A stretch of DNA of 64,000 nt from Candidatus Woesearchaeota archaeon (GTDB lineage: Archaea > Nanobdellota > Nanobdellia > Woesearchaeales > UBA10216): positions 19,951 to 83,950 of the forward strand of contig JACPBY010000004.1 of the NCBI GenBank assembly GCA_016180065.1. Direction: 5' to 3'. Below are positions 19,320 through 64,000 of this stretch, in pieces. The notes beneath the pieces were generated by a model, which was not told where the DNA came from, made no database searches, and saw nothing but the letters and a program-made list of their open reading frames with translations. Numbering within the stretch: the stretch's first letter is position 1; the number at the start of each line of letters is the position of its first letter. The translations under genes were made by a program, and so were the position numbers.

Positions 19320-21260
19320 CTACACGTCAAGGTTCTTTACCTCAAGCGCGTGCTGCTCTATGAACTCCCTTCTCGGCTCCACTTCCTCGCCCATGAGGAG
19401 CGTGAATATCTTATCTGCTTCAACAGCATCATCAACATTCACCTTCACAAGGGCCCTGGTGCCGGGGTTCATGGTTGTCGACCAGAGCTGCTCAGGATTC
19501 ATCTCGCCAAGCCCCTTGTAGCGCTGAAGCGCAGCCCCGTCTTCACCGACCTGCTGCAGCAATTCAGCCAGTTTAGCGTCGTTGTACACGTAGTAGTCCT
19601 TCCTGCCTTTGGTTACCTTGTATAGCGGAGGCTGGGCTATGCAGATGTAGCCTGCCTCAATAAGCGGTTTCATGTACCTGAAAAAAAACGTCAACAGCAA
19701 CGTCCGGATGTGAGAGCCGTCAACATCAGCGTCACACATCAGGATTGTCCTCCTGTACCTTGCTTTCTTGATGTCAAAATCATCGCCGACGCCTGTGCCT
19801 ATCGCAGAAGCCAGGGCAACTATTTCCTTGCTTGAGAACACCTTGTGCAGCCTGGCCTTCTCCACGTTCAGGATTTTGCCTTTCAGGGGCAGGACAGCCT
19901 GGTACTCCCTGTTTCTCGCCTGTTTGCAGCTCCCGCCTGCGCTGTCCCCCTCAACAATGAACAGCTCGCACTCATCAGGGTTGGTGCTGGAGCAGTCAGC
20001 AAGCTTTCCCGGCAAAGAGCTGCCTTCAAACAAGGTCTTTCTCCTGACAAGGTCCTTTGCCTTCCTTGCAGCCTCCCTTGCAGTTGCAGCGTTGGCGCAC
20101 TTTTCAACAATGGCCCTTGCAACCTTAGGGTTCTCTTCAAAAAAAGCTGAAAGCGAAGGCCCAACTATTGAGTCAACAACACCCTTGACTTCAGAGTTGC
20201 CAAGCTTCCTCTTGGTCTGGCCCTCAAACTGCGGCTCAGGGACCTTAACCGCAATGACAGCGGAAAGCCCTTCCAGAGTGTCCTCGCTGGAAATCTTGGC
20301 GTCCTTGTCAAGAAGGTTATGCTTCTCTGCATAGCTGTTTATCGTCCTTGTGAGGGCAGTCCTGAAGCCTGACAGGTGAGTGCCCCCTTCTGTGGTGTTG
20401 ATTGTGTTGACAAAGCTGAAGATGTTCGGCAGGTAGCTCTCATTGTACTGCATGGCTGCTTCAACACTGGTGCCGTTCTTCTGGCCTGACAGGTAAATTG
20501 CATCATGAAGCGCTTTCTTATTCTGGTTGATGAAGCCAACAAAAGACTTTATGCCGCCGTCATACCTAAAAGAGTGCTCCTTGCCAGAGCGCTCATCCCG
20601 GATAGAAATCTCCAGCCCGGTGTTGAGGAAAGCAAGCTCTCTCAGCCTGCTGGACAGGATGTCAAAATTAAAATCAACCGTCTCAAATATCGTAGCATCA
20701 GGCGCAAATGTCACAGTAGTGCCGCTTTCACCAGCTGTGGCTGTGCCCACAAATTCAACTGGCGTTACAGGAACACCCTTCTCATACCTCTGCCTGCACA
20801 CCTTCCCATCACGCCTGACCTCAACAGCCATTGTGGCTGAAAGGCCGTTGACCACAGAAACGCCCACCCCGTGCAGCCCGCCAGAGACCTTGTAGCTCTT
20901 CTTGTCAAACTTGCCGCCAGCGTGGAGCTTTGTCATCACCACTTCCAGGGCGGTCTTGTTGAACTGCGGCATCATGTCAAAAGGAATCCCCCTGCCGTTG
21001 TCTGACACGGTTGCCGAGCCGTCAGAATTAACCACAATAGAAATCCTTGTGCAGTAGCCGGCAAGAGCCTCATCAACAGAATTGTCCACAGCCTCATAAA
21101 CAAGATGATGCAGGCCGTTAATGTCAGTGCTGCCAATGTACATGCCAGGCCTTTTCCTAACCGATTCAAGCCCTTCCAGAACCTGGATGCTTGAGGCGTC
21201 GTAAGCGCCCTTTACCTTCTCATTCGCCTTATCTGCCGCTGAATCTGCCATTTTTGCCAC
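19320..21260 (-). CDS. gyrB: DNA gyrase subunit B
   Basis: 'VRKRPGMYIGSTDINGLHHLVYEAVDNSVDEALAG', 'ELFIVEGDSAGGSCKQARNREYQAVLPLKGKILNVEKA'. Confidence 0.97.
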   Translation of the reverse strand: MAKMADSAADKANEKVKGAYDASSIQVLEGLESVRKRPGMYIGSTDINGLHHLVYEAVDNSVDEALAGYCTRISIVVNSDGSATVSDNGRGIPFDMMPQFNKTALEVVMTKLHAGGKFDKKSYKVSGGLHGVGVSVVNGLSATMAVEVRRDGKVCRQRYEKGVPVTPVEFVGTATAGESGTTVTFAPDATIFETVDFNFDILSSRLRELAFLNTGLEISIRDERSGKEHSFRYDGGIKSFVGFINQNKKALHDAIYLSGQKNGTSVEAAMQYNESYLPNIFSFVNTINTTEGGTHLSGFRTALTRTINSYAEKHNLLDKDAKISSEDTLEGLSAVIAVKVPEPQFEGQTKRKLGNSEVKGVVDSIVGPSLSAFFEENPKVARAIVEKCANAATAREAARKAKDLVRRKTLFEGSSLPGKLADCSSTNPDECELFIVEGDSAGGSCKQARNREYQAVLPLKGKILNVEKARLHKVFSSKEIVALASAIGTGVGDDFDIKKARYRRTILMCDADVDGSHIRTLLLTFFFRYMKPLIEAGYICIAQPPLYKVTKGRKDYYVYNDAKLAELLQQVGEDGAALQRYKGLGEMNPEQLWSTTMNPGTRALVKVNVDDAVEADKIFTLLMGEEVEPRREFIEQHALEVKNLDV

Positions 21261-55197: not shown

Positions 55198-55857
55198 TTA
55201 AAACCTGCCTTGTTCCCTCAGAGCCTGCTCCATGGGAACCTTGTCAAACGATAACGTGACCTGTGGCAGAATGCCGTGTGGCACTATCATGGCAGGTGCT
55301 GCGCCGCCAAGAGAATAGTACGGAGCTGCATAATCCGCCATGCGCCATCCGCCGTTGTAAATGATTCCTGAGATTTTTCCTGTACTCCTGTGCACAGAAA
55401 CTCTGCCTGGGCTATAAAATCGCCCGAAAGGAGATTCCATGGCCAAGAACAAGGGCACAGCAGGCTTGTCCTGCCCCGCTACCAACCCGCGCCCCTCAAA
55501 ACTGCCTTCTTCGTTGAGTATGGCTGCTGTGATGTCAAAGCAGCGCAGCAGGTTATCAGGGAACGCACCTTCATGAACCAACGCGGCAATATCCTCTTCA
55601 AGCTGGGGAGGGATGTACAAAATACCGCAGGGAGTGCCGTCCCTTTGGAATTCAAGCACCTTAAACCCGGGCGTGCTTTCAACTTCATAATGTGCATTAG
55701 CTAAGCCTTGAAGCTTGCCGGTATCCATAATGCTCGAAAGCTCTACTACTGCCTGAAGCCCCCCTTCCATGCTTACAGAGCGGGAATTCCCGATGTTATG
55801 GTCGCGTGGAGGCTGCCATAACAGGAATTTCTCTCCAAACTTAACCTCTTTTCCCAT
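55198..55857 (-). CDS. Hypothetical protein
   Basis: ORF. Confidence 0.35.
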   Translation of the reverse strand: MGKEVKFGEKFLLWQPPRDHNIGNSRSVSMEGGLQAVVELSSIMDTGKLQGLANAHYEVESTPGFKVLEFQRDGTPCGILYIPPQLEEDIAALVHEGAFPDNLLRCFDITAAILNEEGSFEGRGLVAGQDKPAVPLFLAMESPFGRFYSPGRVSVHRSTGKISGIIYNGGWRMADYAAPYYSLGGAAPAMIVPHGILPQVTLSFDKVPMEQALREQGRF

Positions 55858-55944: not shown

Positions 55945-57297
55945 ATGGTCTTGGACAGGCTTGGCGAATCGCTCAGGAATGCGTTGCAGAAAGTCGCAAG
56001 GAGCATATTTGTAGATGATGCAGCAGTCAACGAGCTGGTCAAGGAGCTGCAACGCGCTCTCCTGCAGTCAGACGTAAACGTAAAGCTTGTTTTTGACCTC
56101 AGCCAGCGCATCAGGGACAGGGTTCTGAAAGAGGAGATTCCGGCAGGGCTTACAAAAAAAGAGTACCTGGTGAATGTCGTTTATGAAGAGCTTGTAAAAT
56201 TCCTCGGAAAGGAGGAAAGCCAGATAGACGTGTCTGCAAGGCCGTCTGTGCTGATGCTTTCAGGGCTTTTTGGCTCAGGAAAGACAACAACTTCTGCCAA
56301 GCTTGCAAAGCACTTCGCAAAGCGCGGCCTCAAGGTTGCGCTTGTGCAGCTTGACGTTTACAGGCCTGCGGCATTTGACCAGCTGCAGCAGCTTGGAAGG
56401 CAGATTAACGTGCCTGTTTTTGGCAATAAAGGCGAAAAAGACCCGCTAAGGATTTACCGCAGCTTCGAGAATGACCTGAAAAGGTTTGATGTTGTGATTG
56501 TTGACACAGCAGGAAGGGATGCGCTTTCCGCAGACCTGCTTGAGGAGCTAAAGTCTGTTGCAGAGGCAATAAAGCCAAAGGAAAACCTCCTTATAATAAG
56601 CGCAGACATCGGGCAGGCAGCAGAGAAGCAAGCAACAGCCTTCCATGAGGCCTGCAGGATAACAGGCGTAATCATCACCAAGCTTGAAGGCACAGCAAAA
56701 GGCGGGGGAGCGCTGAGCGCCTGCGCACTTTCAGGAGCGCCTGTGAAGTTTGTAGGGGTTGGAGAGAAGATTGACGACCTTGAGCGCTTCAACCCGAAAG
56801 GGTTTGTCGGCAGGCTGCTGGGCATGGGAGACATAGAAGCCCTGCTGGAAAAAGCGCAGGAAGCGGTGACAGAGGAAGAGGCAAAGGACATAAGCGAAAA
56901 ATTCCTCAAAGGCGAGTTCACACTGCTGGACCTTTACGAGCAGATGCAGGCGATGAGGAAGATGGGGCCCATTGCCAAGGTGGTTGAAATGATTCCCGGA
57001 TTCGGCCAGCTGAAGCTGCCCAAGGAAATGCTTGACGTGCAGGAAGGGAAGCTGAAAAAATGGAAATTCGCCATGGACAGCATGACAAAAGAAGAGCTTG
57101 AAGACCCTGAGCTGATCAGCAGCGACAGGGCAGAGCGCATAGCCAAAGGCTCAGGCATAAGCACAGGCGAGATAAAAGAGCTGCTCAAGCAGTACAGGCA
57201 AAGCAAGAAGGTTGTAAAGATGTTCAAGGGAGCAACCCCAAAGAAGATGCAGCAGATGATGAGGAAAATGGGCGGGATGAAAGGGCTTGGGGGCTAA
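55945..57297 (+). CDS. srp54: Signal recognition particle protein SRP54
   Basis: 'LMLSGLFGSGKTTTSAKLAKHF', 'VQLDVYRPAAFDQL', 'IVDTAGRDALSADLLEEL', M-domain 'MRKMGGMKGLGG'. Confidence 0.97.
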   Translation: MVLDRLGESLRNALQKVARSIFVDDAAVNELVKELQRALLQSDVNVKLVFDLSQRIRDRVLKEEIPAGLTKKEYLVNVVYEELVKFLGKEESQIDVSARPSVLMLSGLFGSGKTTTSAKLAKHFAKRGLKVALVQLDVYRPAAFDQLQQLGRQINVPVFGNKGEKDPLRIYRSFENDLKRFDVVIVDTAGRDALSADLLEELKSVAEAIKPKENLLIISADIGQAAEKQATAFHEACRITGVIITKLEGTAKGGGALSACALSGAPVKFVGVGEKIDDLERFNPKGFVGRLLGMGDIEALLEKAQEAVTEEEAKDISEKFLKGEFTLLDLYEQMQAMRKMGPIAKVVEMIPGFGQLKLPKEMLDVQEGKLKKWKFAMDSMTKEELEDPELISSDRAERIAKGSGISTGEIKELLKQYRQSKKVVKMFKGATPKKMQQMMRKMGGMKGLGG

Positions 57298-57343
57298 GGC
57301 GCAACTTTCCGCAACAGATTTATAAACCGCCCTAAAACCCGTA

Positions 57344-57416
57344 GGGTTGATAAGGGCAGGGCTTGCCTTGTCAAACTGTAATAAGGGTTGATAAGGGAGC
57401 GTAGAGCTCCCTTATT
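57344..57416. repeat. Two tandem GGGTTGATAAGGG hairpin units upstream of tRNA-Ser
   Basis: GGGTTGATAAGGGCAGGGCTTGCCTT and GGGTTGATAAGGGAGCGTAGAGCTCCCTTATT. Confidence 0.65.
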
Positions 57417-57515
57417 GCCGCGGTCGCATAACCTGGTAGTGCGTCAGTCTTGAACTAGAGAAAAAAGCAAACTGATGCCCGCAAGGGCTTCGGGGTTCAA
57501 ATCCCTGCCGCGGCG
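57417..57515 (+). tRNA. tRNA-Ser(TGA) with about 15-nt intron (57455-57469)
   Basis: Acceptor GCCGCGG/CCGCGGC, anticodon stem TCAGT/ACTGA, loop CTTGAA|A, long variable arm GCCCGCAAGGGC. Confidence 0.85.
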
Positions 57516-57627
57516 CTTTCTTCTTTTTTTCCATTCGTTGGAGTAAACAGTCTTGTGTCTTCACTTCTTAAGGAGTAAATTTATAAATAAACCCGCGTTA
57601 GCAGATTGAAACTTTGGGGGTGTAACT

Positions 57628-58431
57628 ATGCCGGCAGAAAGCCAGTCATCAGGAAGCCAGTATGAAGGGAAGCGGTATGTTATTCAGGGGTTTGGAGTAA
57701 GGGGCGATGCGAGGATCCGAAATCCTGACGGAAAAACTGTTTTTGTCTCTGAGGTTCCAAAAGGGCTCCATGTTGGGGATTTTGTCTCAATTGTTGGCTA
57801 CCAAGTAGTGCCTGGACCTGCCGATTTTGCAAGGTATGCTCCACTACCTGGCCAGCAAGCCAGAACCGCAGCTGCACCACCAGTTCAGAGGCCTGTGGCT
57901 GCTCAGAATCCAATGGCTACACCAGCAGGGCGCCCAGTTACCGCTGCTGCGCAGATGGTTTACATCCTGCACATTGGGCCGACAAGCAAGGGCGATGACT
58001 CTGCCATTGCCATTGTCAGGGAGGATGTGCTTGGCATGACAGCATACGATGCTGTGATGCACTTAATCGCACATCACGATGACAAGTCTGTTTTTGCTGA
58101 CTCAACAGACAGGAGGATAGCAGGCAGGCTGAATGATGTTGTGGCAAGGGCACAAAGGGAAAGGGCATTGGAAGAGCTTGTCTTCACAATAGGAAACGAG
58201 CCGGTTACCAAAGCTACGCAGAAAAAGCTTAAGGATTATTTCACAACCCCTGCCCAGAGTGGCAAGTACAGTGTGCAGGCAGTGGTTAAACAGGAAGGGC
58301 AGGCTGGAGCAGCAGTCCCTCCTGCTGCAGCAGGCGCACCTGCCCAGCCCCAAAAGCCGCAGGTGGCAAGGGCAGTGTCAACTGTTGCAAGGAAGGGCAG
58401 CCCTGGCAGCAGACTGGAGCTTTTAGTGTGA
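57628..58431 (+). CDS. First gene of ubiquitin-like conjugation operon; candidate modifier/substrate
   Basis: ORF following GGGGGTG RBS-like; P/A/Q-rich linkers separate a short N-term domain from 'MVYILHIGPTSKGDDSAIAIV...'. Confidence 0.5.
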   Translation: MPAESQSSGSQYEGKRYVIQGFGVRGDARIRNPDGKTVFVSEVPKGLHVGDFVSIVGYQVVPGPADFARYAPLPGQQARTAAAPPVQRPVAAQNPMATPAGRPVTAAAQMVYILHIGPTSKGDDSAIAIVREDVLGMTAYDAVMHLIAHHDDKSVFADSTDRRIAGRLNDVVARAQRERALEELVFTIGNEPVTKATQKKLKDYFTTPAQSGKYSVQAVVKQEGQAGAAVPPAAAGAPAQPQKPQVARAVSTVARKGSPGSRLELLV

Positions 58432-58478
58432 TGCTGTGAGGTCTGAACTACAGGAAGCTATGAAACCCACCTGGCAAA

Positions 58479-59900
58479 ATGCTCACTACAACAATAGAGC
58501 AGGCAATCTCACAGTTTGGCTCTTTTCTCCTTTTTGGAGACAGGATTTATTGGCTGGGAAATCCCAGCCCAAGCCCTGTGAATGGGAACCATATTGTCCA
58601 GAAGGCTGGCAGCAGGCGTGCTTATTTTCCACTGGGCCATGGAACTCCTCTTTCTGATTTAGAGGAGCTGGATTTCTTTCGAAACCGGGAAGAGGTCAGG
58701 GAAATAAAGCAAAGCTGGGTGATGGATAACCTTGACAGGGACTCTGTTTCAATTATGGATTATGTGAGCAGGTACAAGCTTCTGAGGTTTATTGTTGATG
58801 AGCTCTTTCCGAGAATGGTCGCAGCGCCTGTAGAAGAGCGGCTGGAAGCCATTCTCTCAGGAGGGAAGGAAACGATAACCGGCAAGGAGATTGTGCAGCA
58901 GGAACTTGGCTCACAGATTAAAGGTTCGGTCATCAACATTGACATAACCCGGCATAGCGTGGATAGGCTGGAACATCAGTTGGCTAATTCAGAGCTGCAA
59001 GGACAGGAATACTTTGCCACCTACCTTTTGAGCAGCGAGTTCAGGGCATCAGATGTTGATAAGCCTTCAATATTCTCGCGGCTAAGCGGCAACACACCTG
59101 TTCTCGTGATTGGAGGAAAGCCATATATTTGCGACAGGCCGCCTGAGGAATCAAGCCTTGAGATTAACGTGATGGGCAGGGTTTTGGGCTACATTCCGGT
59201 GCCCAGATACCCGCAGGGCATAATCAAAGCTTACAGTGAAGCTGTTTCCAGGGCAATAAGGCTTGAAGCCTTTTCAGACCTGAAAGCTGCCTTGGATACC
59301 ATGGAAACTGCTGTTCTGAAGGATGTTGAATATATGCCGCTTATGGATGTGGACGAGTTCAGGTTCAGGGACATTGGCTTTTTCCGCAACGGCACTGTTT
59401 ACTACGTTTTCAGGAGAATCCCTCGATTTGCCAGGCAAACGACGTATGACGAAGGCCTTTTCATTGCAAAGGAATCTGATAAGGACGGGTATGCAGGCGA
59501 GTTCGGCATAGGGCTGCATTATAAGGGAGGAGAAATGAGGTATTTGGGCTATCATGAGCAGGAAGGGGGGGTTGTTTACAGAGGGCCGATAAAAGAAGAT
59601 GCGCCATTCCACAGCAGGGTTGACATAATAGACCCTGTAATGCGTGCCAGATACGGCCAGCTGCGGACAATCTGCCATGTTGGAGGGTATCCGCATTTTC
59701 CGCTGACTCCCGATGGCTTTTTGGAGTTTATGACTTATGCCCTTTCCAACTTCCTGGATAGCTTCAGGACAAAGTTTGTTGAGCAGCACTATGATGCTGC
59801 AGAGCAAGCCAGATTGCTTAACGCTGGTGTTTTGATGGCAAAAAGCGCGGCATTGGAGCAGGGCTTCATGCTGACAAACATACACCACATCGAAAGATGA
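58479..59900 (+). CDS. Operon protein with tentative E2/UBC-like C-terminal region
   Basis: 'APFHSRVDIIDPVMRARYGQLRTICHVGGYPHFPLTPDGFLEFMTYALSNFL' resembles the E2 'YP..PP.v.../G.iC.../W.p..' layout; ATGA junction with next gene. Confidence 0.4.
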   Translation: MLTTTIEQAISQFGSFLLFGDRIYWLGNPSPSPVNGNHIVQKAGSRRAYFPLGHGTPLSDLEELDFFRNREEVREIKQSWVMDNLDRDSVSIMDYVSRYKLLRFIVDELFPRMVAAPVEERLEAILSGGKETITGKEIVQQELGSQIKGSVINIDITRHSVDRLEHQLANSELQGQEYFATYLLSSEFRASDVDKPSIFSRLSGNTPVLVIGGKPYICDRPPEESSLEINVMGRVLGYIPVPRYPQGIIKAYSEAVSRAIRLEAFSDLKAALDTMETAVLKDVEYMPLMDVDEFRFRDIGFFRNGTVYYVFRRIPRFARQTTYDEGLFIAKESDKDGYAGEFGIGLHYKGGEMRYLGYHEQEGGVVYRGPIKEDAPFHSRVDIIDPVMRARYGQLRTICHVGGYPHFPLTPDGFLEFMTYALSNFLDSFRTKFVEQHYDAAEQARLLNAGVLMAKSAALEQGFMLTNIHHIER

Positions 59901-61372
59901 TAAAGATTAAGAGCTTTGAGGAAAGGGAAACGGCAGCGGTTGAGGCTGCGGCAAGCGAATCGCCTTCGCTTCTCAGCCTTTTGCCATTTTCAGCAATAAG
60001 CATTACAGAGGAAGCCCACCAGAAGAATGCTGAGGTTGGCAGAATTCTCGATGGCATGAGCGGCAAGCATTTTGAGTGGTATGGCTACAGCCTGGCAGAA
60101 AAGAGAAGCCTGGCAGTCATTGTTGACACGCTGATACAGCCAAACCAGACAGTTTCAGGGGTTGATGTGGACTTTGCCCCCATAGAAGCCAAGAAGGCTT
60201 TTGACGAGTTGCAGGTAAGAAACGCTGCCGAAGGCAGGCTTGGCAGCGGCAGCGAGCTTGTGCCTGTCGGGATTGTCCACAGGCACGGCTTTTCAGCCCG
60301 GAAGCCGTTCAGGTCGCAGTCTGACGTGAGGAACTTATCCTACTATGTCCAATTGCAGGCGGCCCAGACTGAGTTTCTCAGCACGCAAACAGACCGGTTT
60401 GAGCAGGTTGGGCAGTTTGCAGTGCAAGTGAGTGGCTCCACCCTGAGGCTTGTCCCAAAGTCAGGAGACAACCTGATTTTAAGCTACGATTTTGCAGGGG
60501 CTGGTGACTTGCTTCTTTACAAGCTTGGGCTTGATGCTGAGCGTGTCCGCGCTAATGGGGGGTTGGCCAGGCTTGTCGGTGATATTCTTGGCAGCGGAGC
60601 AAAAATAAGCGCTGAGCAAAACCGGTTTGTGAGCTATGCCACCAGCTTAATTTACAACCGCGATGGAAACAGCCCATTCGGGGAAATCATTGTACTTGCG
60701 ACTGGCTCAGTGGAAGGAAAATATGAGAAAGCCTTCGAAGTGCCAGTCAGCGTCCTGCCAGGAACTGGCGGCTGTGAATGGTCATTGTCTGGCCTTGAAA
60801 GAGAGGTTGATGCCAAAATAAGCTGGGCAAGGAAAAAGGTACAGATACGCTTACCTGGAAAGGCGCGGGAGATTATAGCCTCGCGGAGAGAAGCATCTGA
60901 ATTGATTGGAAGCGCAGGGATTGACTTATGGGAGCGGTTCTGGCCCGTTGAATCAGCCATAGAACTTGTAAGAAGAGGCGATGCTCCGGGCATGAAAGAA
61001 ACGGCAGTCAGCTTTTTCCTGGCAGCTGCAGGCTATGTTAACAATTGCAAAGCTCCAAAAGTGGACTATGCGTGTTACCTGTTTTCGGTCATGGCAGCAA
61101 TGCAGCAAGGCCAAGTGCCACTTACCCAGGCGGTGAAAAATGTTGGTAGGCTGTTCAAAGACCCGGTATATCAGGGAGGCAGGTTCCAGAGGCCGCCGGT
61201 TGAGAGCCTGAAAGCAGGCAGCATAGTTGCAAACATATGCTCTCCTAGGCGGGAAACACAGGGCTTGGAGTATTCGTTTATGAGGGAGCTTACAAGCGCA
61301 GGCACAGATGGCGTAAGCAGGGTTTTGGAAAAATATGTCCCAATGCTCTTGGCGGCAGGCAAAGCAAAATGA
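59897..61372 (+). CDS. JAMM/MPN+ metalloprotease (JAB domain) with large C-terminal region
   Basis: Upstream Glu 'HFEWYGYSL' then 'VPVGIVHRHGFSARKPFRSQSDVRNL' = HxH...SxxD JAMM signature; ATGA overlaps on both sides. Confidence 0.75.
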   Translation: MIKIKSFEERETAAVEAAASESPSLLSLLPFSAISITEEAHQKNAEVGRILDGMSGKHFEWYGYSLAEKRSLAVIVDTLIQPNQTVSGVDVDFAPIEAKKAFDELQVRNAAEGRLGSGSELVPVGIVHRHGFSARKPFRSQSDVRNLSYYVQLQAAQTEFLSTQTDRFEQVGQFAVQVSGSTLRLVPKSGDNLILSYDFAGAGDLLLYKLGLDAERVRANGGLARLVGDILGSGAKISAEQNRFVSYATSLIYNRDGNSPFGEIIVLATGSVEGKYEKAFEVPVSVLPGTGGCEWSLSGLEREVDAKISWARKKVQIRLPGKAREIIASRREASELIGSAGIDLWERFWPVESAIELVRRGDAPGMKETAVSFFLAAAGYVNNCKAPKVDYACYLFSVMAAMQQGQVPLTQAVKNVGRLFKDPVYQGGRFQRPPVESLKAGSIVANICSPRRETQGLEYSFMRELTSAGTDGVSRVLEKYVPMLLAAGKAK

Positions 61373-62844
61373 CAACGGCAGCAGAGATTGACACCGCAAG
61401 GCTGCACAGGCTTATGCTTGGAATAGGAGCAGACGGTTATGAGAAGCTTAAAAAATCCCAGGTTTCAGTGGTTTTTGACAGTGAGGTTGGAAAGTATGTG
61501 GCGCTGCCGCTTGCTGCTTCAGGCATTCCACTCGTGCTTGTCAGCGCTTCACAAAAACATGTTTGGGAGCAGCTTATCGACATCCCTTTGCAGCAGGCAG
61601 AAATGGCACACAGCTATGCTGGAGCGCTAAGGCAATTCAATGGCAACCCCAGCCTTGAAACCATTATTGGCGTGGAAGCGGCAATGGGCTTCCACGGCTC
61701 AACAGCGCTTCTTGGCGGCTCTTCAGTTGTCATAGACTGCACCAACAGCCAGCTTTCCAAGGAAGCGTGCCTGAGCTTTGCAAGAAAAGCCAAAGCCAGC
61801 TTCATAAGCATATCAGTTGTGCCCGGCTATGCAAGGCTTGAGCTTGCTGCCCCTGACAACCGGAAGGTTGGTACATCAGTGCTTATGCCTGGCATGGCAG
61901 AAATGGAAGCAGGCCTTGCGGCAACAATCCGCGGAAACCCATTGCATGAGGCAGGAGCAAGCATCACAAAAGAAATGATGGGAATGTTCATGGGAGGCAT
62001 GGCTGCTGACGAAACAGTCAGGCTGATTCTTGGCAAAGGCCAGCCATTAAACAGGCCGCTTTACCTGAAATTTGGCTATGGCTCTGATGTTTTTTCACCA
62101 AAACAAGAGCACGACGAGCTGCGGTATGTTGTGCCGGGCATGTTTGGCAGCAAATCAGCGCTGCTCTTCGGCCTTGGCGCAGTTGGGGCGAATGTTGCAT
62201 TCTGGCTGTCAAAAATCGGCATGGGAAGGGTTGATACATTGGACTATGACGTGGTTGAAATCACAAACGTCATGAGGACATTATTCTACCACCAGCACGT
62301 TGGCGAACTGAAGGCTGAGGTTGCGTCACAAAAAATAAAGGCGCTATCCTGCGGCAGCACAGAATCCAAGTCATTTAACGTGAAGCTTGCGCCCGGATGG
62401 GAGCCTGGGCAGGATTACAGCATTTATGTTGACGGCTTTGACAATTTTCTTGCGAGAAGCCTGGTTCACAGGCTCGGCATTCAGAATAAAACACCGGTCC
62501 TGAGCGCTTCCGGCAGGTTTGACGGGTTTGACATGGAAACCTATGTTCCAGGCCAGACGCTGTGCTTTGACTGCAACTTCGGGCTGGGCAGGCTGGCCGA
62601 GAAGGAGGAGGCTGACAGGAGGAACAGCTGTGTTGTGGAGTTCACGCCACAAAACACATGGGTAAACCAGAGCGTTGGCGCACTGGCAGCAATGCTTATC
62701 GTTAATGTATTTAATCCAGACAGGTATGGCAGTGTCCCGAACGGAATGGTCATGTATGACCCAAGCCAGGAGTCAAGGCTGTTTGTGAACAGCAAAGCAG
62801 GCAGCTGCGCATTTAGCGGGGGAGAAATGCAGCATGGCATCTGA
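61369..62844 (+). CDS. E1-like protein with tandem ThiF domains (degenerate N-terminal plus active-looking C-terminal)
   Basis: C-half 'ALLFGLGAVGANVAFWLSKIGMGRVDTLDYDVVEITNVMRTLFYHQHVGELKAEVASQKI', 'CFDCNF', 'NSCVVEFTPQNTWVNQSVGALAA'; N-half 'QVSVVFDSEVGKYVALPLAASGIPLVLVSAS'. Confidence 0.85.
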   Translation: MTTAAEIDTARLHRLMLGIGADGYEKLKKSQVSVVFDSEVGKYVALPLAASGIPLVLVSASQKHVWEQLIDIPLQQAEMAHSYAGALRQFNGNPSLETIIGVEAAMGFHGSTALLGGSSVVIDCTNSQLSKEACLSFARKAKASFISISVVPGYARLELAAPDNRKVGTSVLMPGMAEMEAGLAATIRGNPLHEAGASITKEMMGMFMGGMAADETVRLILGKGQPLNRPLYLKFGYGSDVFSPKQEHDELRYVVPGMFGSKSALLFGLGAVGANVAFWLSKIGMGRVDTLDYDVVEITNVMRTLFYHQHVGELKAEVASQKIKALSCGSTESKSFNVKLAPGWEPGQDYSIYVDGFDNFLARSLVHRLGIQNKTPVLSASGRFDGFDMETYVPGQTLCFDCNFGLGRLAEKEEADRRNSCVVEFTPQNTWVNQSVGALAAMLIVNVFNPDRYGSVPNGMVMYDPSQESRLFVNSKAGSCAFSGGEMQHGI

Positions 62845-63862
62845 GGACATTGCAGAGCTTGTGGCAAAGGAACTTAGGCGGCAGATTGAGCTTGGCAGGC
62901 AGCAGGAGGCCCTGCCTGCCGTGGAAGCAGCACAGTTTGACCCTGTCATGAAAATTGCGTCAATCCTGTCAAGGACCAAGATATCCTCGCTGCTGCGGTA
63001 TTTCCACGACGCGGTTTACGCCAGCGTAATTTCGGGAAATGAGAGGACGAGCAGATATTCCTGGGAATGGAGAGAGCCCACCATTGCAGACCTGAGAAGG
63101 CCTTTCTACGAGGCCGCTGATTTTTTGCTGTTTGAATATTTAGGCTCAGGCCTGCGAAGGCCCAACCGGAACGGCCGGATTCTGATGGACATCATTGCCA
63201 AGGCAGGCAGCTCCAGAGAGGCGTTGTACAAGATAGCCCTTATGAGGGTAAGGCAGAGCTACCTTTTTTCAAAAGACGAAGCTTTCAGGCCGGAGCAGGA
63301 TTCGGACAGCTTGTTGGGAATGCGGCGCCGCCGCACAAGGCAGCGCAGCCGCATAACAGAAGGCGATGATGCACAACATAGGAAACTGCAGCCGAGCAAG
63401 GAATGGCTTGCCGCTGAAGTGGCTGAGGCGCAAAAGCCCCTGGAGAAGCTTGCAGACGATGTTGCATGGGCGCTTTATGAAAAGTTTGCCATAGAGTTCT
63501 ACCACAGGAATTTCGGCCTGCCCACTACACAGGTATTGAAGGCAAGGTCATTTCACGTTAAGGAAAAACCTGAAGCCTACCAGGACACACTTCAAGGGCT
63601 GCTCCCATTGGACCCGAAGGCTGTAATGGCTGCAAACGCATACTGCACCAACTTCCCGGGATTTGAAGAAAGGCTGAAGAGGTCAAGCACGGCATTTCAC
63701 CTGGTCCTTCTGGCCGCAATAGACTTCTACCAAAGCAGGATTGCAGAGCCGGAACTGAAGCATGCCATCAGCAGCGCAGTAAACGGGACAAGAGACCTCC
63801 AGTCTGTTTTTTACCTCACAATCTTTGCAAGCCATTTGTCATGGGCAGGGAAGATAAAATGA
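62834..63862 (+). CDS. Hypothetical helical protein of the E1/JAMM operon
   Basis: ORF overlapping upstream E1 gene by 11 bp. Confidence 0.5.
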   Translation: MASEDIAELVAKELRRQIELGRQQEALPAVEAAQFDPVMKIASILSRTKISSLLRYFHDAVYASVISGNERTSRYSWEWREPTIADLRRPFYEAADFLLFEYLGSGLRRPNRNGRILMDIIAKAGSSREALYKIALMRVRQSYLFSKDEAFRPEQDSDSLLGMRRRRTRQRSRITEGDDAQHRKLQPSKEWLAAEVAEAQKPLEKLADDVAWALYEKFAIEFYHRNFGLPTTQVLKARSFHVKEKPEAYQDTLQGLLPLDPKAVMAANAYCTNFPGFEERLKRSSTAFHLVLLAAIDFYQSRIAEPELKHAISSAVNGTRDLQSVFYLTIFASHLSWAGKIK

Positions 63863-64000
63863 CAACGCTAAGGGAATTCATTGACAGGACTGCGCAATAC
63901 AGCTCAAAGCTTGAGTGCCTTATACTTGAGGGGGAGGATTTTGCAGACCCGTTCGCAAGCCACTTTTCAGCTTCTCCTACTGACTTATGGCTTAAGCTGG
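63859..64000 (+). CDS. Partial ORF, next operon gene, truncated by window end
   Basis: ATGA overlap with previous gene; MTTLREFIDRTAQYSSKLECLILEGEDFADPFASHFSASPTDLWLKL... Confidence 0.45.
   Translation, partial: MTTLREFIDRTAQYSSKLECLILEGEDFADPFASHFSASPTDLWLKL

Follow-up and report, generated by a model that had tools for sequence, protein, structure and literature searches.

A probable ubiquitin-like conjugation and deconjugation operon, with a Bil-like gene order, in a Woesearchaeota genome

Do DPANN archaea, which are tiny and for the most part uncultured, encode a ubiquitin-like protein conjugation system of their own? The question is raised by the last genes of a contig from Candidatus Woesearchaeota archaeon (contig JACPBY010000004.1 of assembly GCA_016180065.1). 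The window that we analysed comprises 64,000 nucleotides, positions 19,951 to 83,950 of the forward strand of this contig, and in its segment 57628–64000 six genes point the same way, five of them complete and the last truncated, all on the plus strand according to the list of open reading frames (ORFs). They are P1 (57628–58431, 267 residues, none of them Cys), a candidate ubiquitin-like modifier (Ubl) precursor; P2 (58479–59900, 473 residues), E2-like; P3 (59897–61372, 491 residues), a JAMM metalloprotease; P4 (61369–62844, 491 residues), an E1 of tandem ThiF domains; P5 (62834–63862, 342 residues), of a family marked by a DPxxKIASIL motif; and P6, which starts at 63841 or 63859 and runs to 64000. 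P1 and P2 are separated by a 47-bp gap, while the P2/P3, P3/P4, P4/P5 and P5/P6 junctions overlap by 4, 4, 11 and 4 bp, respectively (the last with the P6 start at 63859), in agreement with a sequence-only reading of this DNA that had described six co-directional ORFs with four overlapping junctions. The window ends where the contig ends (83950 bases), and the operon is therefore truncated at P6. We put at roughly 80% the probability that these genes specify a reversible and self-contained system of ubiquitin-like conjugation; any statement on its biological role carries far less confidence.

P4 belongs to the ThiF family (PF00899, 4.6e-30). Its C-terminal half, at about residues 259–455, is an adenylation domain of the active type and its N-terminal half is degenerate and of the inactive type. 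When a profile of 21 E1 relatives was compared with the Protein Data Bank (PDB), the best match was UBA1 (6.7e-33), aligned in two stretches, followed by UBA6, UBA7, ThiF and MoeB. On the strength of the ThiF match, the second, degenerate half and the two-stretch match to UBA1, P4 is, as judged from its sequence, a fused inactive and active E1 that lacks the large additional domains found in UBA1. It carries the ATP-binding and Cys motifs of an E1, and its conserved Cys residues form a CxxC pair (C399, C402) followed by C421, the candidate thioester Cys. A search for related loci with the single window E1 sequence returned nothing, and tblastn against plasmids and phages gave MoeB-like half matches only.

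P3 holds the complete JAMM catalytic set, consisting of Glu60 (60074–60076) and the stretch H128-R-H130...S140-x-x-D143 (60278–60325). Across 23 members of its family H128, H130, S140 and D143 are invariant and E60 is near-invariant. The P3 sequence alone falls below detection in Pfam and NCBIfam; the family profile matches Caldiarchaeum Rpn11 (6fjv) first in the PDB, at 5e-7 and 3.9e-7, with BRCC36, Rpn11, AMSH and JAMM1 next, and the desampylase model of haloarchaea recognises some of the members (1.4e-6). Thus, both the E1-like enzyme and the metalloprotease of the sequence-only reading are borne out. At one related locus (L067, 583–7920) two adjacent JAMM genes encode unusually large proteins of 1403 and 1026 residues, against the usual 300–650.

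The AlphaFold2 (AF2) model of P1 has a confidence score (pLDDT) of 76 and consists of an N-terminal barrel, modelled with confidence, followed by a second domain. The barrel (residues 11–72, 57658–57843, pLDDT about 94) is TRAM/OB-like: Foldseek matched it to the TRAM domains of MiaB and MMP0076 with E values of 8e-3 to 1e-2 and a probability of 1.00, and it is possibly nucleic-acid-binding. The second domain (residues 111–255, 57958–58392, by DSSP of the AF2 model) is the putative Ubl. Its elements run strand, strand, helix, (helix), strand, strand, short helix and strand; a disordered insert rich in Pro and Ala precedes the final strand (246–255), and that strand leads straight into KGSPG. 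This order is ubiquitin-like in the model and, being an order of secondary structure, would suit a Ubl fold. The combination of a TRAM/OB-like part with the Ubl was seen only in P1 and in its counterparts at loci L096 and L098, to which P1 is 40% identical; through iterated profile searches P1 joins the wider Ubl family (6e-22), and it scores below the threshold of the genome-wide Ubl profile search.

The C terminus of P1 is KGSPG/SRLELLV (58393–58428), which in the alignment with L096 and L098 would comprise a conjugation Gly, G260, and a 7-residue propeptide. The aligned end of L096 is RRGSPGHETLDDLI, so that window RKGSPG/SRLELLV stands against RRGSPG/HETLDDLI, and L098 ends at GRKGRPG. We compared the 55 members of the Ubl family with 432 other ORFs of 90–300 residues from the same loci. 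Within the last 22 residues GG occurs in 29/55 against 34/432, and GG, PG, SG or EG in 43/55 against 98/432; tails that read L(E/D)xx(hydrophobic) are found in 23 of the 55 and 16 of the 432. Typical ends are QEGG/LQ (L032), AGG/SR (L030) and IGG/NVD (L029), while in the Ubls of L088 and L098 the Gly itself is the last residue. The earlier view that the cluster has no recognisable diGly Ubl therefore has to be given up, since the aligned relatives end in such motifs and the window copy has KGSPG with its tail. A Gly followed by a short tail looks like the end of a JAMM-processed pro-ubiquitin. Locus L087 (G298:C14) carries three to five Ubl-family genes, one of which ends in CPGG, beside E2-like genes, two JAMM genes and one E1 gene, which suggests that several modifiers are served by a single E1.

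In the E2-like family of P2 a single aligned Cys is present in 66 of 68 members and corresponds to C399 of the window protein (59673–59675), the candidate catalytic residue. An HP dipeptide lies up to 29 residues upstream of this Cys in 53/66 members, compared with 23/220 for the other Cys residues of the same proteins. E2 enzymes carry an HPN...C stretch, of which this pattern is reminiscent. The predicted C-terminal domain of P2 (helix 246–281, strands, Cys, helices) would be compatible with a UBC fold. Position in the gene row, conserved Cys and motif together argue for P2 as a candidate E2.

The same set of genes recurs across the class and is hence not a chance association. At the 64 tandem-E1 loci of the class, to which our neighbourhood counts refer, an E2-like gene is present in 59, a JAMM gene in 56, a Ubl gene in 43 and all three in 40. 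The exact order Ubl>E2>JAMM>E1 is found in 26 of them, and most of the others are variants of it. The proposal by the sequence-only reading of an archaeal ubiquitin-like conjugation and deconjugation operon is supported, with DPANN archaea as its hosts. Often the next gene after E1 is a relative of P5; at about 19 loci such relatives, which share the DPxxKIASIL motif and belong to a family with no known domain, lie near the E1. As neighbours of the E1 had served to seed the Ubl and E2-like profiles, each profile was run alone on 350 genomes of the order. Of the 48 genomes positive for the E2-like profile 45 also encode a tandem E1 (Fisher 3e-48), and so do 35 of the 37 positive for the Ubl profile (Fisher 2e-34), both values ignoring phylogeny. 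Within 8 kb of a tandem E1 lie 56 of the 74 E2-like hits and 39 of the 48 Ubl hits. Three genomes are exceptions, and in two of them (G110, G260) the hits lie where a contig begins, which means that assembly may have lost the E1.

These observations suggest the following cycle. P3 would clip the short tail of P1 and so expose its C-terminal Gly; P4 would adenylate the trimmed P1 and then hold it as a thioester; P2 would take P1 onto Cys399 and hand it to a target, perhaps with the aid of P5; and P3 would also remove the modifier from targets. In the lineage of the window, a TRAM/OB-like, possibly nucleic-acid-binding domain would be built into the modifier, and in other lineages tagged targets may reach an unfoldase and the 20S proteasome.

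Several points weigh against this reading. The Ubl family gave no Pfam or PDB match in sequence and profile searches, Foldseek found no beta-grasp match for the second half of P1 (the top matches belong to the OB half), and P1 ends in SPG, not in GG. For P2, Foldseek returned nothing significant from the PDB (UBE2L3 ranked fifth, E 0.62) and no match in the viral library BFVD, the family has no sequence match in Pfam or the PDB and no PADLOC match, and the clade of the window carries DP in place of HP. By hhalign neither the Ubl profile with ubiquitin nor the E2-like one with yeast Ubc4 gave a significant alignment; with Ubc4 the HP...IC stretch was aligned (P 0.023), and neither comparison is counted as evidence. 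The Ubl and E2-like profiles stem from neighbours of the E1, the Fisher tests disregard shared ancestry, and the contig stops within the operon. There is, finally, no candidate E3, and no RING-like pattern was seen near any of the 64 E1 loci, the window operon being cut by the contig end.

What might such a system be for? Defence against viruses or mobile elements by the same conjugation chemistry, like that of Bil or CBASS Cap2/Cap3, would refine the conjugation reading, and we consider it plausible at somewhat less than even odds. Gene content and order equal those of BilABCD, an antiphage system according to Hor 2024, as that work is cited in PMC12660748. Among the genomes searched, the seven congeners and 11 further members of the family yielded no full-length P4 relative; such relatives do occur in the order outside this family, and in the class outside this order. 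Those with names are metagenome-assembled genomes of Woesearchaeota, Nanoarchaeota and Pacearchaeota and the archaeon GW2011_AR15, which supports the archaeal assignment of the DNA, and several genomes hold 2–5 divergent copies. A tree of 61 E1 rows mixes the families at strongly supported nodes, as where L064 of f38 joins L025 of f41; class-level outsiders are nested within the order, and the window E1 falls together with L098 (f79) and L096 (f80) at support 100/100. The cluster is thus apparently a horizontally moving accessory module, and it is because its spread is patchy, multi-copy and apparently horizontal that an accessory role such as defence is favoured. Against defence, PADLOC reported generic E1/JAB matches only, no other recognised defence gene adjoins the cluster, and patchiness is compatible with any accessory function.

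The surroundings of the operon fit this picture of mobility. Upstream lie the SRP54 gene (55945–57297) and a plus-strand tRNA gene (57417–57515; Rfam RF00005, 43.6 bits), and a tRNA directly follows SRP54 in the congeners L222 and L221 as well. The region 3′ of SRP54 differs in gene content among seven congeners, which counts in favour of defence, and the SRP54-tRNA site is probably an insertion hot spot at which the module sits here; other accessory systems are likely in the same variable region. The comparison covers window positions 57298–64000 and L218–L224; the stretch that differs between congeners lies before a dinB-like gene. The tRNA gene was missed by ARAGORN in bacterial mode and found by Rfam, likewise in the congeners L221 and L222. 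Some 40 bp before the P1 start there is a TATA-like box, tttataaataaa (57579–57590, plus strand), which by its sequence may act as a promoter, so that P1 is probably the first gene of the operon; a G-rich stretch resembling a ribosome-binding site lies immediately 5′ of the P1 ATG. Further upstream, a 219-residue ORF (55198–55857, minus strand) is flanked by conserved neighbours, and the congeners with which it was compared lack it. Seven of the loci (L033, L086, L089, L100, L204, L205 and L209) have beside them a small gene that by eye looks like an Lrp/AsnC-like regulator.

Targeted proteolysis, in which an AAA+ unfoldase and the 20S proteasome would receive the modified proteins as in a DPANN analogue of the ubiquitin-proteasome system, likewise refines the conjugation reading and is possible, if on balance unlikely. 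PAN-like AAA+ genes are encoded at L025 (with proteasomal-ATPase OB matches), L064, L071 and L207, and ClpX-like ones, an unusual protein type for archaea, at L032, L094, L065 and L198; because these unfoldases are co-encoded, some copies of the system may feed tagged targets to them and to the 20S proteasome, two subunits of which are encoded in the window genome. The resemblance of the JAMM profile to Rpn11 points the same way. However, AAA+ genes occur at only about 8 of the 64 loci and none lies in the window, whose operon is cut. The PAN-like gene stands immediately 5′ of the Ubl gene in L025 (10156–11649), L064 (11606–13090) and L071 (13292–14770), and the ClpX-like gene lies within the row, immediately 5′ of the JAMM gene, in L032 (5720–6835) and L094 (10150–11250).

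It is very improbable that P1 is instead a sulfur carrier, turned into a thiocarboxylate by a MoeB/ThiF/UbaA-like P4 for tRNA thiolation or a cofactor, with the TRAM-like domain binding tRNA and P2 acting as a sulfurtransferase or scaffold. In its favour, P4 shares the CxxC and ThiF core of such enzymes, P1 carries the TRAM-like domain, and in Pyrococcus ThiS and TRAM genes are known to be associated (PMC2948915). Yet P4 scores 68–77 bits with the MoeB and ThiF equivalog models, far under their cut-offs of 266–275, and 57.6 bits with UbaA, whose cut-off is 450; neither a rhodanese gene nor one of the ThiS/MoaD pathway was recognised among the genes of the cluster; most Ubls have no TRAM part; the E1 is a fused tandem nearest to UBA1; and a JAMM gene and a conserved-Cys partner stand beside it in most loci. 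Membership of the MoeB/ThiF sulfur-transfer systems was rejected, as these cut-offs were missed and the pathway neighbours were not recognised. The sequence-only reading had named such an assignment, or missing JAMM or ThiF folds, as grounds against its proposal; both families are present. ThiF enzymes also produce peptide-nucleotide antibiotics, and MccB is among the PDB matches of the E1 profile, yet a MccB-like enzyme that modifies a small molecule or peptide, with P1 never conjugated to proteins, is the least credible option, given that a JAMM partner, Gly-plus-tail ends and a conserved-Cys partner would be unexpected.

If the conjugation reading is correct, full sets of Ubl, E1, E2 and deubiquitinase (DUB) extend to the highly reduced genomes of Woesearchaeota and their kin, the Bil-like layout exists outside bacteria, two families that Pfam does not recognise gain a function, and about 60 divergent operons become available for studying the origin of ubiquitin cascades and of their link to unfoldases. 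A more daring and rather doubtful extension is that this system is DPANN-wide and has Ubl and E2 families of its own, that some versions, tied to PAN- or ClpX-like unfoldases, add to SAMP and the Caldiarchaeum/Asgard type a third ubiquitin-proteasome-like route in archaea, and that the window modifier, through its TRAM/OB RNA-binding-like domain, would enable its targets to bind RNA or ribosomes. Searches of openly accessible article texts yielded no account of ubiquitin-like conjugation in Woesearchaeota, in keeping with the earlier description of the system as undescribed; the archaeal ‘Cluster III’ of PMC5654768 might include some of these loci.

How does the cluster compare with known systems? 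PRTRC shares ThiF, JAB and E2-like genes with it, but P4 reaches 29 bits with PRTRC_ThiF (cut-off 145) and no PRTRC partner was recognised. CBASS Cap2/Cap3 and 6A-MBL show the same E1, E2 and JAB chemistry, with a weak E1 match. In type II CBASS, however, Cap2 is an E1-E2 fusion, whereas E1 and E2 are separate genes here; among the window proteins there was no CD-NTase match and likewise no MBL gene. The haloarchaeal SAMP-UbaA-HvJAMM system resembles the cluster in having a Ubl, a ThiF E1 and a JAMM, and some of our JAMM members match the desampylase model. UbaA differs in being a single-domain E1 that acts without an E2, in contrast to the E2-like gene at nearly every locus here, and P4 lies far below its cut-off. 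The Caldiarchaeum/Asgard operon (Ub, E1, E2, small RING and Rpn11) is also archaeal; a nine-residue propeptide of Caldiarchaeum pro-ubiquitin is removed by Rpn11 (PMC5654768), the best match of our JAMM profile. That operon has a RING E3, whereas no RING-like pattern was seen near the 64 loci here, of which the window operon is cut by the contig end; the Ubl and E2-like families are not detectably homologous to its own by sequence, and the JAMM here is within the gene row, usually as the third gene.

With BilABCD the cluster shares the set of Ubl, E2, JAMM DUB and E1 genes, and also their order, which for Bil we take from the letters of the system to be Ubl-E2-DUB-E1. The statement of the sequence-only reading that gene order and tandem-ThiF E1 match none of the systems it could name is thus corrected, as both match BilABCD. 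BilD is a pseudodimer of inactive and active adenylation domains, like P4, and BilC cuts BilA to expose its C-terminal Gly (PMC11354881), as P3 presumably does with P1. BilA is built of two Ubl domains, and a CEHH motif marks BilB (PMC11354881); in contrast, P1 has one Ubl-like and one TRAM/OB-like domain, and the E2-like family has no CEHH (E at +6 in 4/66, H at +8 in 0/66, H at +13 in 2/66). Because these two features were not found, the cluster would work like Bil but fails as a member. What is new, in addition to the archaeal hosts, are the Ubl and E2-like sequence families, the presence of P5 and AAA+ genes beyond the basic set and the fusion of P1 to a TRAM/OB-like domain.

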